A stretch of 44,744 bases of DNA from Prevotella sp. (GTDB lineage: Bacteria > Bacteroidota > Bacteroidia > Bacteroidales > Bacteroidaceae): positions 1 through 44,744 of the forward strand of contig JAFSKJ010000043.1 in the NCBI GenBank assembly GCA_017449025.1. The letters are read 5' to 3'. This document shows positions 7,258-16,850 of this stretch, piece by piece. The position numbers were made by a program, and so were the translations under genes. Under the pieces are notes generated by a model. It saw only the letters and a program-made list of their open reading frames with translations, was not told the DNA's origin and did no database searches. The stretch's first letter is position 1. Every line of letters starts with the position of its first letter.

Positions 7258-7457
7258 GTAAGTGACCCTTTATGGTTGGTTTCGGCATTATGATAAATAG
7301 GGTAACTGATTCTTTTCTTTCTACAAGATATTCCTCACGCTCGCGTACGAGATTTTGCCCTTTCGGCGTGGGTTATTCACTGCCTTACCCCCAGGGCGAT
7401 GCCCTGGGGGATGGAGACTAATTGCTACCTTTGCAGGTTGGTTGTGCGACTTGATGT
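7258..7457. repeat. Convergent intergenic region with GC-rich palindrome (repeat C, copy 1)
   Basis: The space between converging genes holds a perfect 10-bp stem with GAT loop at 7388-7410 (CCCCCAGGGC/GCCCTGGGGG). It is followed after about 20 nt by TACCTTTGCAGG. The same arrangement recurs at 16730-16793, so this looks like a dispersed element that may also act as a terminator between the converging genes. There is no T-run after the stem on either side. Confidence 0.5.
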
Positions 7458-8630
7458 TCAGAATGTGACAATAACTTTTTTCTTGGCTATACTTCTGGTC
7501 TTCGGAGATCCTACAATGGTGAGCCGCTCTGATGGCTGTTCGCTGTCGGTGCCGTTGTCGCATGCCCAGCTCTTGTCAACTTCAGCAGTAAAAGAGCCGC
7601 CGCTGACGATGATGGCTGTAAGGCTCTTCACGGCCTTGGGCTTGCCAAGCTCGTTGTCACCTGAGGTTTTAGCCACAAACGTACCGCCACTTATCTCTAC
7701 GTTCTCAGAGCAGTTTACGCCTTTGCCTCCGTCGCCTGTGCTTGTGATTGTCAGTTCACCGGCAGTCATGGAAAAGAGACTGTCACACTTTATGCCTGCA
7801 CACGACGTGGTGTCGTTGACGCCTTCAACGGTCTCGACCTTGCAGTCGCCGGAAGTAGTGATGGCCGTTGTTCCGCCGCTGACAGTTGTGTATGACTCGC
7901 ATCTAATACCTCGTGCACCGTCGGCCTTTACGTCAATCGTCAGTACGCCACCTTCAATGAAAACGCCGTCGTTGGCCTTCACACCGTTACTACCAGTCTT
8001 TGACACATTTACGTCAATAGTAGGTCCGTCAGCAAGGAACGTAATATAGTCGTCCGTAGCTATACCATTCTTGTAGTTGCCATTTACGGTTAGCTGTCCT
8101 TTACCCCGGAAGTACACTTCGCCTTCACTGAATAGTGTTCCCTTCTGGTCATACTCTTGAGCAGTGTATTCTGTACCGTCGGCAATAGTGTTGGTTGTTC
8201 CCTCTGCACAAGTGATGTATAAAGCCTTGTGACACTGGTTGTTGATGGCAGGTCCTGAAGGGTTGGTTATGCTTACTCCGTTGAGTATTATCTCATAGTT
8301 CAGCGCACGATAAACCAGCAGTGAGCCATTGGTGGTAGAGCCGCTGAGCATGAGTATGAGGTTGTCGGTGCTCATTCCGTCGTTGACAACAACATGTGCG
8401 CCGTTGACACTGGCCACGCTGCTACGGTCGCCGCTGACTGTTGCACTGCTTCCAGCAAATGCCACGTAGACTGTATCGCTCAATGTCGACGGTGTTGGAG
8501 TTACTGTGGTGGTGTCTTCGCTTTCGGTATTATTGATGTATGCGCTGAAGTCGGTATCGTCTTTCTCGCATGACATTACAGCCACTGCCATTATGGCTGA
8601 AGCCATTGTTCTGAACATTGTTTTATTCAT
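7458..8630 (-). CDS. Cthe_2159-like carbohydrate-binding domain lipoprotein
   Basis: Last gene of the VTC operon. The 390-aa product has a lipoprotein signal (lipobox ending at Cys21, MSCEKDD) and a Ser/Thr-rich linker. A repetitive beta-solenoid region follows, with strands such as INGVSI, GVKANDGVFIEGG, ISGGTFVAKT and VSGGSFTAEV. This pattern matches the Cthe_2159/DUF4353 carbohydrate-binding domain, whose founding member binds acidic polysaccharides with calcium. Predicted to sit on the cell surface or periplasmic face by its lipid anchor. It starts 34 nt after the DUF2490 gene. The family call rests on the repeat style and operon partners. Confidence 0.8.
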   Translation of the reverse strand: MNKTMFRTMASAIMAVAVMSCEKDDTDFSAYINNTESEDTTTVTPTPSTLSDTVYVAFAGSSATVSGDRSSVASVNGAHVVVNDGMSTDNLILMLSGSTTNGSLLVYRALNYEIILNGVSITNPSGPAINNQCHKALYITCAEGTTNTIADGTEYTAQEYDQKGTLFSEGEVYFRGKGQLTVNGNYKNGIATDDYITFLADGPTIDVNVSKTGSNGVKANDGVFIEGGVLTIDVKADGARGIRCESYTTVSGGTTAITTSGDCKVETVEGVNDTTSCAGIKCDSLFSMTAGELTITSTGDGGKGVNCSENVEISGGTFVAKTSGDNELGKPKAVKSLTAIIVSGGSFTAEVDKSWACDNGTDSEQPSERLTIVGSPKTRSIAKKKVIVTF

Positions 8631-8664
8631 ATATATATCTTACAGTTTTATAATAGTTTATTAA

Positions 8665-9435
8665 TTAAAACTTAAACTTATAGTCTAACCCCAAATAGTG
8701 CATGTTAGGCTCATAGTCGTCGGGGTCGGTATTCTTAGCCTGCTGGTATCTGTAGAATGCTCCGAAGGAGTGCTGTTTTGTTAGCTTGAAGTCTGCGCCA
8801 ACAGTGTACCTTATTTTCTCTATCGCCATTTTGTTGTAGAATTCAATGTTGGCGTAAGGCTTAATCTTCAGACCCTTCTTGTCGAACTCCACTTGAAGTC
8901 GCGAGCGCAGCATGTTCTTGCCCCGACCGCTGCGCATCTTGGTCTCCCATTTGGAGTTGTCGAAGTCCCAACGTTCAGTTTCCTTCTCCGGTCGGTATGT
9001 GTACTGCCAACGCTCGCGCAGGGAGAGGCGTATGTCGCCCCACACCTTATGGTCGAAGGTGAGCGATGCCTTTAGCCTATGTCGCAGCCCCCAATAGCTT
9101 GGTCTCCAGTTGTTATACCCTGTTGCAGAGCCGTCGGCGGCATAATTATATGTAATCTTCTCACGGTTGTTGTCGTATAGAAGGTTGTATGCAGCGTCTG
9201 CCTTAAGCCATTTTGTCAGCTTGTAGTCAATGCCCACTCCCCCACTCCAGCGGTCAAGAGTCTTGAAATCGTTGCGGGTACGGAATGTGGCCTCGATATC
9301 CACGCTCATCTTCTTGTCGATCTTTTTCTCTGCTCCGGCACTGAGCAGCAGTCCGCCTTCGCTTTGGGAATAAGCGGCAAATGGCGCCAGGCAAGTCAAA
9401 GCCAGCGCCACAAGTGTTTTCTTAGATGTGTTCAT
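8665..9435 (-). CDS. DUF2490 outer-membrane protein
   Basis: The 256-aa product has a cleavable signal peptide (about residues 1-23, ending AAYSQ). Amphipathic beta strands with alternating aromatic residues follow (RLSLRERWQYTYR, HYLGLDYKFKF). The C-terminal Phe is typical of outer-membrane barrels. This is the DUF2490 pattern common in Bacteroidetes. The start overlaps the end of the DUF4956 gene by 14 nt, which implies coupled translation. Likely an outer-membrane beta-barrel; what passes through or is anchored there is unknown. Confidence 0.8.
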   Translation of the reverse strand: MNTSKKTLVALALTCLAPFAAYSQSEGGLLLSAGAEKKIDKKMSVDIEATFRTRNDFKTLDRWSGGVGIDYKLTKWLKADAAYNLLYDNNREKITYNYAADGSATGYNNWRPSYWGLRHRLKASLTFDHKVWGDIRLSLRERWQYTYRPEKETERWDFDNSKWETKMRSGRGKNMLRSRLQVEFDKKGLKIKPYANIEFYNKMAIEKIRYTVGADFKLTKQHSFGAFYRYQQAKNTDPDDYEPNMHYLGLDYKFKF

Positions 9436-10087
9436 AGTCAGTCGTTTTTAGTTTTATTCTGTGGTCAATATCTTTTTTCCCATCGTTGGTTCCATCATAG
9501 TAGATGCGTATCATTGCCATATCGCGGAGGAAATCTATGGCACCCACCTCAACTTTGGTTACCGCAACTCCCAGGCGGCTCTGCAAATCTGCTATAAGCT
9601 CGCTGCGCCGCACCGGCTTTATCAGCTCAATGCGGTCGTACTGTATGAGCTTGGTTGGCTGGGTCTTCAGTTTCAGTTCGCAGAGCCACACGGCTATGAT
9701 GACCACTATGTTGGTGATGAGCAGTTCTCCGTATGACATTGATACTGCAAGCGCATTGACAACCGACAAGCATATTGTGATAAAGAGGTAAGTCATTTCG
9801 CGCACAGGCATAGCGTCAGTGCGATAGCGCATGATCGAGAATATTCCGAAGAGTCCGATGCCGATACCCATTGAGGTTTTTCCCTTCATGTCTTCAAGTA
9901 CGAATATCATGAAGTAGACAATGAAGAAAATGGCCACAGAGATAAGCATAAATGTGAAGAAGAAGTCGCGGCGACGACTCTTGGCATAATAGAGGCGGTC
10001 AATGATAATCCAGTTGACGATTACACAGATAAGGAATCTCACCAGCATGGTGATGAAGTCCGGAGAAATGGCAAATAATGTATTCAT
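9422..10087 (-). CDS. DUF4956 inner-membrane protein
   Basis: The 221-aa product has four likely membrane segments (about residues 13-32, 43-64, 98-117 and 120-137). Between the second and third lies a glycine-rich GIGLFGIFSIMRYRT motif that I associate with DUF4956. A soluble C-terminal domain of about 80 residues follows. In other genomes DUF4956 proteins are commonly found beside VTC-domain polyphosphate polymerases, as here. It starts 28 nt after the VTC gene. It may be the membrane partner or export channel for the polymer, but that is inference. Confidence 0.85.
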   Translation of the reverse strand: MNTLFAISPDFITMLVRFLICVIVNWIIIDRLYYAKSRRRDFFFTFMLISVAIFFIVYFMIFVLEDMKGKTSMGIGIGLFGIFSIMRYRTDAMPVREMTYLFITICLSVVNALAVSMSYGELLITNIVVIIAVWLCELKLKTQPTKLIQYDRIELIKPVRRSELIADLQSRLGVAVTKVEVGAIDFLRDMAMIRIYYDGTNDGKKDIDHRIKLKTTDYEHI

Positions 10088-10115
10088 GTTAAGTTTTTGA
10101 GTTAATGAGTTTCTG

Positions 10116-10868
10116 TTATATATTGGTTTTAAGTATTTTATCCACTTCTATGAGTTTCCGCTTGAAGCGGTTCACCGGCAGCTGGTCGTTTGAGAGTGCC
10201 GACCCCATGCAATACTTGCTGAACCCGTGGGGATGTATGCGCAGCTGCCTCAGCATGGCCAGCACCGGCGAAGGGCAGAGGCCGTCGCGCTTGAGTTCGA
10301 TAATCACCAGTGGATACATCTCGCGGCGCATGCCAGTCACCAGGTTTTTGAACACCAAGTTCGTGTCGATGGTGAGCCGCTCCGTCTTGTCATGATTAAC
10401 AAGGGTGATGCGGTCAAAGTGGTTGTTAAGTGCGGGGATGAGCTGCGATGTGTCGTAGTGCAGGTGGCTGTGGAGGAACTCGAGTTTCGTGGGGTCTTCG
10501 AGATTCATGTCCGTCACGGCTATTCGCTGCTTCTTTGTCCGGCCATGATTGTTCTTGGTCTTCACCTCCATAAACTGGAGGTTGCTGCTCACGTATGTCC
10601 GAAAACGTATCTTCTGGCGATTGGTATGCCCGTGCTGGTGAACATTGTACATATCGAACGAGCGCGTGTCGAAGTACGTTGTGTCATAAGCCATATTGCG
10701 CTGGCCGTCAATCTCCTGAATGCTGTAGGCATCGCAGGCCATGTCCAGCAGTTCATCCAGCTTTGGCACTGTGGTAACAAACTTCGTGTCGATTCGGTTC
10801 ATCAGCTTCACGGCTTTCATTTCCTCAAGCGAAATGGGCTGATACTTTGTAATTATATCTTGTGTCAT
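10116..10868 (-). CDS. VTC-domain polyphosphate polymerase-like protein
   Basis: The 250-aa product matches the VTC domain, the triphosphate-tunnel fold that in yeast Vtc4 makes polyphosphate from ATP. Tunnel motifs are visible in order: RIDTKF, TTYFDT, KIRFRTY, FMEVKTKN, ERLTIDTN, IIELKRDG and FSKYCMG. These supply the alternating Arg/Lys and Glu residues expected to bind triphosphate and metal. It lacks the SPX and membrane domains of yeast VTC; the DUF4956 protein next door may supply the membrane part. First gene of a four-gene operon behind a clear promoter (10894-10925). Polymer identity is inferred from the family only. Confidence 0.87.
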   Translation of the reverse strand: MTQDIITKYQPISLEEMKAVKLMNRIDTKFVTTVPKLDELLDMACDAYSIQEIDGQRNMAYDTTYFDTRSFDMYNVHQHGHTNRQKIRFRTYVSSNLQFMEVKTKNNHGRTKKQRIAVTDMNLEDPTKLEFLHSHLHYDTSQLIPALNNHFDRITLVNHDKTERLTIDTNLVFKNLVTGMRREMYPLVIIELKRDGLCPSPVLAMLRQLRIHPHGFSKYCMGSALSNDQLPVNRFKRKLIEVDKILKTNI

Positions 10869-10893
10869 ATATAGTTCTGTCTGGTTTACGGTG

Positions 10894-10925
10894 CAAATTT
10901 AGATATTGTTTCCCGATGTAACAAA
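10894..10925 (-). promoter_or_regulatory. Promoter of the VTC-DUF4956 operon
   Basis: On the minus strand, TTTG (10925-10922), a 20-nt spacer and TAAATTTG (10901-10894) match the Bacteroidetes consensus exactly, 25 nt before the VTC start codon. Confidence 0.75.
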
Positions 10926-10951: not shown

Positions 10952-11713
10952 TCAACGAACTGTCATGTGGAAGCATCCCTGCTTCACTTCGTACTTGATA
11001 TAGCAACGCTTTTTCGAACGCATGTCTCTCAGCACCTCAGACAACACGTATTTCAGGGTGTCGTTGCGTACTTGGCGGCGGTGCTCTCCGTCAGGGTCTT
11101 CCACCGTCTGATACCGGTTATAGCATATATCGAAGGTGGTGCCATACAAGTGGCACGAGTTCTCTGTGGCGTTTCCGTTGAAATTGCGTAGCCTCGCCAC
11201 ATCGTCCTTGGTACGTAGCACACTTGTCACTATGAAACGATGCAGGGGAATACCCTTGACGTAAAGACTGTCGAAGAATGCTTGCCCAATGTCTTGCAGT
11301 AGCACGGCGGCCCGTGGAACAAGGTATGGTATGCTTTGTCGCAGCGGATCCACATGGTAGTAAGGCGACGAGCCTATATAGACGAGTTCTCTCATTCTGC
11401 CTTCTGCGTCGGCACGGTTCTTGACAGGTGACACTCCCCAACGTCTTGCGGCTACCATCTGTATGGCATTAGTGTCCGGGAATGTTTCCCTATAGCTTGG
11501 TACAGACAAAATTGGGTGTGGAGAGCTTTTCTCATTCTTGGTGACAGGCTTGTCTGCGCCCATGTCAGCATCTGCATACTTAGGCACTATAGGCACCTCA
11601 GTAGCTGAAACACTATTCGGCTCTGCTACTTGAGGAAACAACAATCGCACCAACCATAGCAGCAATGTCACTATGGCAAAGCCCAACAAGTATCTCTTCT
11701 TTGTAAGCCTCAT
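10952..11713 (-). CDS. DUF5715 family protein, LAS/M15-like peptidase fold
   Basis: The 253-aa product has one N-terminal membrane anchor (about residues 8-26), a variable linker and a C-terminal domain. That domain carries SCHLYGTTFD (His188, Asp195) and YEVKQGCFHM (Glu242, His249). These echo the zinc and catalytic motifs of LAS-type peptidoglycan peptidases (SxHxxGxAxD and ExxH), and VTSVLRTKDD resembles the conserved Arg strand. I place it in DUF5715, a Bacteroidetes family. A periplasmic peptidoglycan carboxypeptidase role is plausible but not established. It diverges from phoH. Confidence 0.8.
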   Translation of the reverse strand: MRLTKKRYLLGFAIVTLLLWLVRLLFPQVAEPNSVSATEVPIVPKYADADMGADKPVTKNEKSSPHPILSVPSYRETFPDTNAIQMVAARRWGVSPVKNRADAEGRMRELVYIGSSPYYHVDPLRQSIPYLVPRAAVLLQDIGQAFFDSLYVKGIPLHRFIVTSVLRTKDDVARLRNFNGNATENSCHLYGTTFDICYNRYQTVEDPDGEHRRQVRNDTLKYVLSEVLRDMRSKKRCYIKYEVKQGCFHMTVR

Positions 11714-16647: not shown

Positions 16648-16850
16648 AGATGTTTTGTATTTGAGCAGACCTAATGTATTAAGACGATATGATGAAATCA
16701 TTTCATACAATACGGATTTTCGCCAATTTCCCAGGGCGTTGCCCAGGGCTGGGAGCTTTCTGGCCTTACAGGCCATCTTTGCGGTACTTGCGAGAGTTGT
16801 AAATCTTAAAAGAGATTAATACAAACAATCAATTTAAATACATAAGAATT
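16648..16850. repeat. Intergenic region with palindromes and repeat C, copy 2
   Basis: This holds a small perfect palindrome (ATGAAATCATTTCAT, 16692-16706). At 16730-16793 a GC-rich element has CCCAGGGCGTTGCCC, then TGGCCTTACAGGCCA and CTTTGCGG. Its order matches the element at 7388-7430 (GGGCGnTGCCC, then CTTTGC.GG). It is probably a dispersed palindromic repeat lying between the TPM gene and lemA. Confidence 0.45.

Follow-up and report, generated by a model that had tools for sequence, protein, structure and literature searches.

A VTC-domain operon of Prevotella, read as a diderm version of the CotH-polymerase-DUF4956 set of Gram-positive Pel loci

What might an operon do for its host when it joins a VTC domain to two Pfam families of unknown function, DUF4956 and DUF2490, and to a Cthe_2159-type lipoprotein? 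The question is raised by 44,744 nucleotides of a rumen Prevotella sp. (contig JAFSKJ010000043.1), hereafter the window, for which the original prediction was a trans-envelope machine making an anionic polymer in the cytoplasm and passing it to the cell surface. The features concerned are the following:

10952-11713, minus strand: DUF5715 gene, upstream of the operon (Pfam)
10894..10925, minus strand: promoter, Bacteroidota-type TTTG-N20-TAAATTTG (pattern search of the window)
10116..10868, minus strand: 250-aa protein with a VTC domain (PF09359), a predicted tunnel enzyme of polyphosphate-polymerase type in the cytoplasm (Pfam E 1.1e-30; Vtc4 residue map)
9422..10087, minus strand: DUF4956 (PF16316), 221 aa (Pfam E 1.6e-50; AlphaFold2 model)
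8665..9435, minus strand: DUF2490 (PF10677), 256 aa, predicted outer-membrane beta-barrel (Pfam E 1.1e-25; OMP_b-brl 3.3e-8)
7458..8630, minus strand: Cthe_2159-type beta-helix lipoprotein (PF14262), 390 aa (Pfam E 3.7e-39; 4peu E 1.1e-14; lipobox)
7388..7410, no strand assigned: G+C-rich hairpin with a perfect 10-bp stem, in the space that separates the operon from a convergent gene

The operon and its tunnel enzyme

The open reading frames of the window place the VTC, DUF4956, DUF2490 and Cthe_2159 genes in one direction on the minus strand, and their coordinates confirm the predicted gaps of 28, -14 and 34 nt. The single consensus promoter expected ahead of them is present and of Bacteroidota type, the pattern TTTG-N17-23-TANNTTTG occurring at six sites in the window versus 0.85 expected. 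All four Pfam matches exceed the cut-off. The hairpin is possibly a transcription stop or a repeat element. The DUF5715 gene, separated from the VTC gene by 83 nt with the promoter in between, was dropped as an operon-linked member, its profile matching one open reading frame among the loci, that of the window itself.

The PF09359 match of the VTC protein spans profile positions 1-233 of 235, and the motifs quoted beforehand (KIRFRTY, FMEVKTKN, IIELKRDG and FSKYCMG) are all found in its reading frame. A 45-row VTC profile matches Vtc4 among solved structures (E 1.5e-20); a search of solved structures with the window protein alone recovered no VTC chain, Vtc4 included. Substitution of the tunnel Arg/Lys residues would have counted against the original prediction, but they are kept: aligned to Vtc4, the protein is identical at 13 of 15 mapped positions, catalytic Lys458 included, the others being residues that we take to represent the tunnel. 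Residues R25, K29, R88, R90, E101, K103, K113, R153, R164, E191, K193 and K218 correspond, respectively, to Vtc4 R196, K200, R264, R266, E279, K281, K294, R361, R373, E426, K428 and catalytic K458, and these 12 are kept in 42-45 of the 45 diverse rows. The two non-identical positions are T166 (S375 in Vtc4) and G215 (K455). In the literature searched, no measured activity, polymer or transport was found for any bacterial VTC domain.

A conserved neighbourhood with envelope partners

The neighbourhood is conserved in related genomes, its order recurring far beyond chance. DUF4956, expected to adjoin VTC often, directly follows it in 78 of 80 close loci, the remaining two being contig ends; it lies within 500 nt of VTC in 24/24 relatives and within 3 kb of all 51 phylum VTC genes (counted from 52 loci, G081:C91 being omitted and G081:C160 being a fragment only). 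Among 17 matched plasmid records of other phyla, the nine inspected all hold DUF4956 beside VTC, one of them with a broken VTC. In nearly every locus examined, the gene for DUF4956, a small membrane protein, has as its neighbour one for a VTC domain whose tunnel residues are of polymerase type. The 778-aa VTC reading frame of locus L135, considered as a fusion, was rejected: the contig is G+C-rich, and one of its open frames appears to continue into the VTC gene.

DUF2490 lies within two genes of VTC in 75 of the 80 close loci and beside it in eleven families on the VTC tree. Cthe_2159 is adjacent in 39/80 and occurs in several copies per genome, also away from VTC; it is only a part-time member of the predicted four-gene unit. 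The window's Cthe_2159 protein is nonetheless a predicted lipoprotein with a surface-export-like signal, its lipobox (VMS, cut before the Cys) running into CEKDDT; a lipobox cysteine followed by an X-K-(D/E)2-type stretch is what we take to be a surface-export signal. A lipobox with at least two acidic residues is found in 27 of 43 Cthe_2159 proteins encoded after DUF2490, and DUF2490 itself ends in F, an aromatic C-terminus such as marks outer-membrane barrels, in the window and in 91 of 118 members. Both counts include duplicates, because the relatives and the 80-contig set overlap in at least six contigs (L050/L196, L053/L165, L055/L186, L054/L187, L048/L194 and L044/L158).

Besides its own family, DUF2490 scores against OMP_b-brl in Pfam. 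At five of its positions (R52, R120, R140, R177 and R209), 13-14 of 14 distant members have a basic residue, while acidic residues occupy nine close-set columns. The basic residues were rejected as a mark of VTC linkage, being kept in most of nine members unlinked to VTC.

One clade of VTC has adaptor-like proteins of HlyD type where DUF2490 would otherwise be. Within 3 kb of VTC, an HlyD-type gene is found in 31/51 phylum loci, DUF2490 in 14/51 and both in 0/51, so that one or other envelope partner is present in 45/51; the p value of 3e-8 for this exclusivity is not independent evidence, because the VTC tree needs one change only. The one member scanned from a nine-member HlyD-type cluster matches HlyD_3 above the cut-off (E 1e-7), while four scanned members of the larger kind (22/31) gave three without an HlyD match and one below the cut-off (E 0.034). 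Iterated profiles from both kinds retrieve the same 36 reading frames, and it is only through the iterated profile that the larger kind joins the Pfam-supported one. Pseudoalteromonas offers another envelope protein, DUF4956 being directly followed in one record by a gene for a phosphate-selective porin O/P (PF07396, E 2.4e-47).

CotH kinases and the purpose of the operon

The main partner of the VTC module is the extracytoplasmic CotH kinases. CotH genes are present in 47/48 VTC-bearing versus 60/248 VTC-lacking phylum genomes (Fisher 2e-23). Within families, assigned by hand and with six genomes unlisted in one source listing, 38 of 39 VTC-bearing genomes carry CotH versus 27.6 expected, with 0 of 200,000 permutations as high. 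CotH lies within 8 kb of VTC in 19/51 loci versus 0.89 expected for 53 genes, the expectation being drawn from Pfam CotH counts and the observation from our own CotH profile. To account for this adjacency, which is present in both clades, the VTC tree needs no fewer than 15 changes, and CotH is contiguous with VTC-DUF4956 in L196, L208 and L232. In the window CotH was not found within 8 kb of VTC, and seven CotH reading frames lie elsewhere in its genome. The control genomes of Corynebacterium glutamicum and Methanosarcina acetivorans hold VTC, DUF4956 and CotH. CotH is absent despite VTC in G297, in the relatives G041 and G049 and in the control Bacteroides ihuae, and was not found on the same record in 7/8 records searched from other phyla.

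At the level of gene content, predicted envelope partners (DUF2490 or HlyD-type) and extracytoplasmic CotH genes accompany VTC-DUF4956. The HlyD-type stand-ins, the porin and the surface-type lipoprotein signal favour the envelope role given to the operon at the outset, which had missed its main partner, CotH. Because VTC is hardly ever found without CotH in the sampled phylum genomes, the operon is read as serving cell-surface phosphate chemistry. PPK1 has no link to VTC (45/48 VTC-bearing versus 225/248 VTC-lacking phylum genomes), and VTC is therefore not merely a storage-polyphosphate enzyme; its presence in 45/48 also led us to reject VTC as a general PPK1 replacement.

The reading that we favour, tentatively, takes the operon as the diderm form of a module, VTC-DUF4956, that is widespread and works for the cell exterior, synthesis and export included. 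VTC would turn cytoplasmic ATP into polyphosphate or a polyanion like it; DUF4956 would set a positively charged RYRT at the membrane's inner face, with an ACT-like domain in the cytoplasm, and would take or gate the polymer chain; the Arg-bearing DUF2490 barrel would pass the chain across the outer membrane; and Cthe_2159 and CotH kinases would bind or use it, so that surface proteins and glycans would be phosphorylated or cross-linked. Several observations speak against it: the acidic position 27 of VTC and the S. intermedius deletions, both described below, the genomes and records with VTC but no CotH, the weak HlyD matches of most HlyD-type proteins, the basic residues of unlinked DUF2490 members, the part-time presence of Cthe_2159 and the lack of a solved-structure match for DUF4956.

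The alternative that survives best, although somewhat unlikely, is an intracellular phosphate- or nucleotide-sensing unit, in which an MgtC-like, ACT-type DUF4956 would read the VTC product and regulate surface polymers without export. The AlphaFold2 model of DUF4956 (pLDDT 83.8, pTM 0.72) begins with five long helices, which we interpret as membrane-embedded, and has a beta-alpha-beta-beta C-terminal domain. It has no significant match among solved structures, its weak Foldseek matches including the ACT proteins TyrA and AcuB (best E 0.02, not significant). According to the available part of PMC12345266, Streptococcus intermedius SIR_1592, which we identify as the DUF4956-position gene, is of MgtC type and has an ACT domain inside the cell; Pel increases when it is deleted. 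On the contrary, DUF2490 or HlyD-type genes in 45/51 phylum loci, a porin elsewhere and secreted CotH would be odd company for a purely cytoplasmic switch.

It is unlikely that VTC catalyses another tunnel-enzyme reaction, transferring (pyro)phosphate to an exported glycan, lipid or protein precursor with no free polyphosphate. Position 27 is acidic (D27 in the window, D/E in 45/45 VTC rows), unlike yeast Vtc4, which has Thr198; tunnel enzymes catalyse many reactions, according to the part of PMC4641920 available; and the gene set is located in Gram-positive Pel polysaccharide loci (PMC7112168, in part). The Vtc4 Lys/Arg set is, however, retained, the K428 and K458 equivalents included, and the Vtc4 basic residues that guide the chain away are Glu in a plant hydrolase (PMC4641920, same part). 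At the columns that would match the acidic patch of that hydrolase, the window has basic R25, K113 and K193, and acidic D27.

A more novel reading, and a distinctly unlikely one, makes VTC-DUF4956 the supply line of extracytoplasmic phosphorylation, exported polyphosphate being the phosphate donor of CotH or being itself transferred to surface proteins or glycans. Polyphosphate would leave through DUF4956 and then a DUF2490 or HlyD-type conduit, and secreted, Fam20C-like CotH kinases would act where ATP is absent. This would explain why VTC is rarely found without CotH in the sampled Bacteroidota and why PPK1 is irrelevant to it. It would also say how secreted bacterial CotH kinases obtain an extracellular phosphate donor, and the nested distribution (nearly all VTC-bearing genomes carry CotH, not the reverse) opens such a donor-supply model to direct tests in laboratory strains.

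Finally, it is improbable that one transcript joins two modules for convenience only, VTC-DUF4956 making intracellular polyphosphate and DUF2490 with Cthe_2159 being an unrelated surface or adhesin pair: both families do occur apart from VTC (nine unlinked DUF2490 reading frames, at least one perhaps from a contig split), but DUF2490 keeps within two genes of VTC in 75/80 close loci and beside it in eleven families, and two of its nine unlinked loci, L062 and L067, have CotH next door. The polyphosphate enzymes of the window's genus bear on this too. Neither the genome of the window (81% complete) nor any of its 14 VTC-bearing genus mates yielded PPK1 (0/15, versus 4/21 VTC-lacking genomes), and PPK2 was found in 0/36 genomes of the genus; therefore, VTC could be a plain polyphosphate enzyme there, and PPK1 replacement may still apply in that genus.

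Comparison with known systems

A new pathway had been suggested as possible; the CotH-polyphosphate polymerase-DUF4956 set is already published for Gram-positive Pel loci. According to the available parts of PMC7112168 and PMC12345266, the accessory genes of Gram-positive Pel clusters are CotH, poly-phosphate polymerase and DUF4956 (- DUF4832). In the available part of PMC12345266, deletion in S. intermedius of SIR_1592 gives more Pel and that of SIR_1594 (CotH) less, both altering Pel and aggregation, and no change is told for SIR_1593 (polymerase). The present operon is read as a diderm version of this CotH-"PPP"-DUF4956 set. In both, the polymerase adjoins DUF4956 and a CotH-like gene is associated. 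The Bacteroidota hosts differ in being diderm, in adding a DUF2490 barrel or an HlyD-type protein and in usually carrying CotH elsewhere in the genome; Prevotella further adds the Cthe_2159 lipoprotein, and none of six other window genes scanned with Pfam is a Pel gene. Whereas the analyses in that part of PMC12345266 failed to find the arrangement beyond the Pel locus, Deinococcus has the order CotH-VTC-DUF4956 amid non-Pel genes, as judged from the locus alone.

BT3498-BT3499 of Bacteroides thetaiotaomicron likewise set DUF4956 and DUF2490 side by side; they figure in a table of iron-dependent genes (-7.6 and 0.175) in PMC10434189, as a table entry only, the term "VTC" being absent from its text. 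The phosphate-selective porin O/P of Pseudoalteromonas holds a DUF2490-type place after DUF4956, and DUF2490 has conserved basic residues, but it is a separate Pfam family and the lining of a pore by those residues is hypothetical. PPK1 and PPK2 would make the same polymer as proposed for VTC. They are families unrelated to it, and PPK1 coexists with VTC in most VTC-bearing phylum genomes.

The eukaryotic VTC complex has membrane helices of its own, whereas the Prevotella operon encodes its membrane part as a protein apart, DUF4956, which belongs to another family. Its Vtc4 (PDB 3g3q, 8i6v) shares the homologous tunnel domain and the same catalytic residues; the Prevotella VTC differs in its acidic position 27 and in having no SPX domain in the Pfam scan of the operon proteins. 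In the yeast model, as given in the available part of PMC9911596, cytoplasmic synthesis is coupled to membrane translocation. Were polymer export alone true, bacteria would still have in this operon an equivalent of the yeast VTC complex, one in which synthesis, the membrane and the outer membrane are each served by a part of their own, and roles would be given to DUF4956 and DUF2490.

The operon and its neighbourhood in Bacteroidota

The four minus-strand ORFs, the promoter and the intergenic distances of 28, -14 and 34 nt all match the original prediction, and Pfam assigns VTC, DUF4956, DUF2490 and Cthe_2159 far above cut-off, within a genome of 3.5 Mb that is 81% complete.

Window 7458-10925, minus strand: operon of VTC, DUF4956, DUF2490 and Cthe_2159 lipoprotein genes
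Window 10894-10925: promoter
Window 7388-7410: perfect hairpin rich in G+C, downstream of the operon (CCCCCAGGGC-GAT-GCCCTGGGGG)
Window 16730-16748: near copy of the hairpin (0.01 matches expected)

The hairpin and its near copy possibly represent a repeat family or a transcription stop. The best 80 named VTC relatives share 67-74% identity, under titles mostly naming Prevotella, Prevotellaceae or Bacteroidales; many of these titles (L153-L232) also name ruminant hosts or rumen isolates.

As had been anticipated for related genomes, the neighbourhood is conserved in the 80 loci around these relatives (close loci): VTC is followed by DUF4956 in 78, the other two (L177, L226) being contig ends, DUF2490 lies no more than two genes from VTC in 75, and Cthe_2159 adjoins, either 3' of DUF2490 or 5' of VTC, in 39. 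Across the window's own genome and its relatives (n=60), VTC was found in 25, DUF4956 in 28, DUF2490 in 28 and Cthe_2159 in 27, and the control genome Bacteroides ihuae holds all four. One relative (G013:C158:2645-3241) carries an apparently broken VTC gene, with one in-frame TGA. In the wider phylum each of 51 VTC genes has DUF4956 no more than 3 kb away, 48 of them within 500 nt; over the same 3 kb DUF2490 accompanies 14 and an HlyD-type gene 31, both occurring together at none and neither at six.

The HlyD-type genes are of two kinds. In nine phylum loci they form one cluster, of which the member scanned hit HlyD_3 (E 1e-7); of four members scanned from the second kind, present in 22 loci, three lack an HlyD match and one reaches E 0.034. 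Iterated profiles from both kinds recover the identical 36 ORFs; the HlyD label is firm only for the nine-locus kind. Since every HlyD-type-linked phylum gene falls within one clade of the VTC tree (96/86), the exchange with DUF2490 is a single ancestral swap rather than many. The close locus L164 has an HlyD-like gene nearby in addition to DUF2490. In the DUF4956 alignment two sequence types are seemingly distinguishable by eye, one found with HlyD-type genes (GNNLARAFGLVGAMSIIRFRT) and the other being the window type.

Other neighbours were also recorded. A common gene cluster lies near VTC in phylum loci L109, L118, L140 and L146, its L140 member being an arylsulfotransferase (PF05935), a type of extracytoplasmic group-transfer enzyme, and a histidine kinase (PF06580) paired with a LytTR response regulator occurs near or in the VTC gene run of L101, L185, L195, L202, L222, L230 and others.

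The VTC enzyme and its envelope partners

Retention of the tunnel motifs, claimed from the sequence, holds against yeast Vtc4: in a profile comparison 13 of 15 printed positions are identical, the exceptions being S375 (T166 in the window) and K455 (G215), and we take the positions compared other than K458 to be tunnel residues. Window R25, K29, R88, R90, E101, K103, K113, R153, R164, E191, K193 and K218 map to identical Vtc4 residues, K218 aligning with K458, the catalytic residue (PMC4641920, as excerpted). Position 27 is D/E in all 45 Bacteroidota rows of the VTC alignment and Thr198 in yeast Vtc4; this acidic residue could bind a second metal. The loci show a conserved gene set with a polymerase-type VTC.

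In the DUF4956 model (mean pLDDT 83.8, pTM 0.72) five long helices precede a C-terminal beta-alpha-beta-beta domain. Compared with solved structures the model gave no significant match, its best Z of 7.1 lying in the range that the tool calls common among helix bundles, and the weak matches include ACT-domain proteins. All 45 aligned rows, from three phyla, have R89 and nearly all have R87; considering the positive-inside rule, both would face the cytoplasm.

Phe is the C-terminal residue of 91/118 DUF2490 proteins. In the close set, basic residues make up 90% or more of 23 alignment columns and acidic residues 90% or more of nine. Among the basic columns six pairs are spaced i,i+2, against 2.2 expected (p 0.01), a pattern that would be expected of residues sharing one strand face. 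A basic residue is retained at five positions by 13-14 of the 14 distant members, but likewise by 7-9 of 9 members unlinked to VTC. As to Cthe_2159, a lipobox followed by acidic residues exports lipoproteins to the cell surface; the window protein has a lipobox and then CEKDDT, and in 27/43 homologues located 3' of DUF2490 two or more acidic residues come after a lipobox.

The link to CotH

The main genome-level partner of VTC, the CotH kinase family (PF08757), was missed by the original prediction. CotH is present in 47/48 phylum-sample genomes with VTC versus 60/248 without it (36/37 versus 43/103 by genus), and in 23/25 versus 17/35 of the own and relative genomes (n=60), G041 and G049 being the exceptions with VTC. 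This strong link persists under within-family permutation (38/39 observed, 27.6 expected). At 19/51 phylum loci a CotH gene is no more than 8 kb from VTC (0.89 expected for 53 genes), and this linkage, present in both clades, requires at least 15 changes on the VTC tree. At L196 and L208, CotH proteins of 1519 and 1448 aa are encoded 3' of Cthe_2159 in the same gene run; the copy at L050, which is the L196 contig under a second handle, scans as CotH plus a lamin-tail domain. At L062 and L067, DUF2490 adjoins CotH away from VTC, an arrangement that suggests a direct tie between the two.

The kinases look exported, because the majority of the 29 CotH ORFs at these loci start, by eye, with a signal-peptide- or lipobox-like stretch and two of five scanned proteins bear the secretion tail PF18962. 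The ordinary cytoplasmic polyphosphate kinase PPK1, taken as control, showed no link to VTC in the phylum sample (45/48 versus 225/248 genomes), and VTC therefore probably does something that this enzyme does not. The idea of a cytoplasmic polymerase feeding an anionic polymer through the inner membrane to an outer-membrane barrel is supported in part and extended: the conserved gene set with a polymerase-type VTC and the genome-level link to CotH stand, and we infer that the polymer would be polyphosphate or a similar polyanion, be exported, pass through the barrel and be used by CotH.

Other phyla and known systems

Nine of 17 matched plasmid-collection records were examined, from Deinococcus (2), Pseudoalteromonas, Shinella, Aminobacter (2), Nitratireductor, Streptomyces and Nonomuraea, and VTC adjoins DUF4956 in all nine. 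In Pseudoalteromonas the VTC is a mere 108-codon open piece that looks broken (L233:6652-6975), the adjoining DUF4956 being intact, and a phosphate-type barrel occupies the place that DUF2490 has in the window.

L233:7566-8657: phosphate-selective porin O/P, directly 3' of DUF4956 (PF07396, E 2.4e-47; annotated 'porin')

A phytase-like gene adjoins VTC or lies one gene beyond in the Alphaproteobacteria records (by Pfam for one, L245:6789-7724), and an SdiA-regulated/phytase-like protein is encoded 3' of DUF4956 in the Bacteroidota locus L128 (6448-7242). One Deinococcus record has the order CotH-VTC-DUF4956. CotH was found on one of eight plasmid records searched, a count covering these replicons of the hosts alone; C. 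glutamicum and M. acetivorans, included as control genomes, possess VTC, DUF4956 and CotH. CotH is the commonest partner seen, not an obligatory one, and CotH, O/P porin and phytase-like partners across phyla make phosphate the common theme of these neighbours.

A search of the open-access literature found no paper joining the phrase 'VTC domain' with DUF4956, though subscription papers may exist. In the text available, Gram-positive Pel genes are flanked by CotH, poly-phosphate polymerase, DUF4956 and DUF4832 (PMC7112168), and BT3498-99 are listed in a table of PMC10434189, one of two papers in the open-access literature that contain 'DUF2490'. For S. intermedius, the accessible sections of PMC12345266 report that deletion of SIR_1592, a protein of four membrane segments plus ACT, and of SIR_1594 (CotH) each cut aggregation by more than half in one medium and shift Pel in opposite directions; for SIR_1593, the predicted polymerase, those sections tell of no change. 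We identify SIR_1592 as occupying the DUF4956 position. The authors of PMC12345266, in the same sections, did not find the CotH-polymerase-DUF4956 arrangement outside the Pel locus; leaving aside the pel content of the genomes concerned, the Deinococcus order CotH-VTC-DUF4956 and the phylum-wide link extend it.
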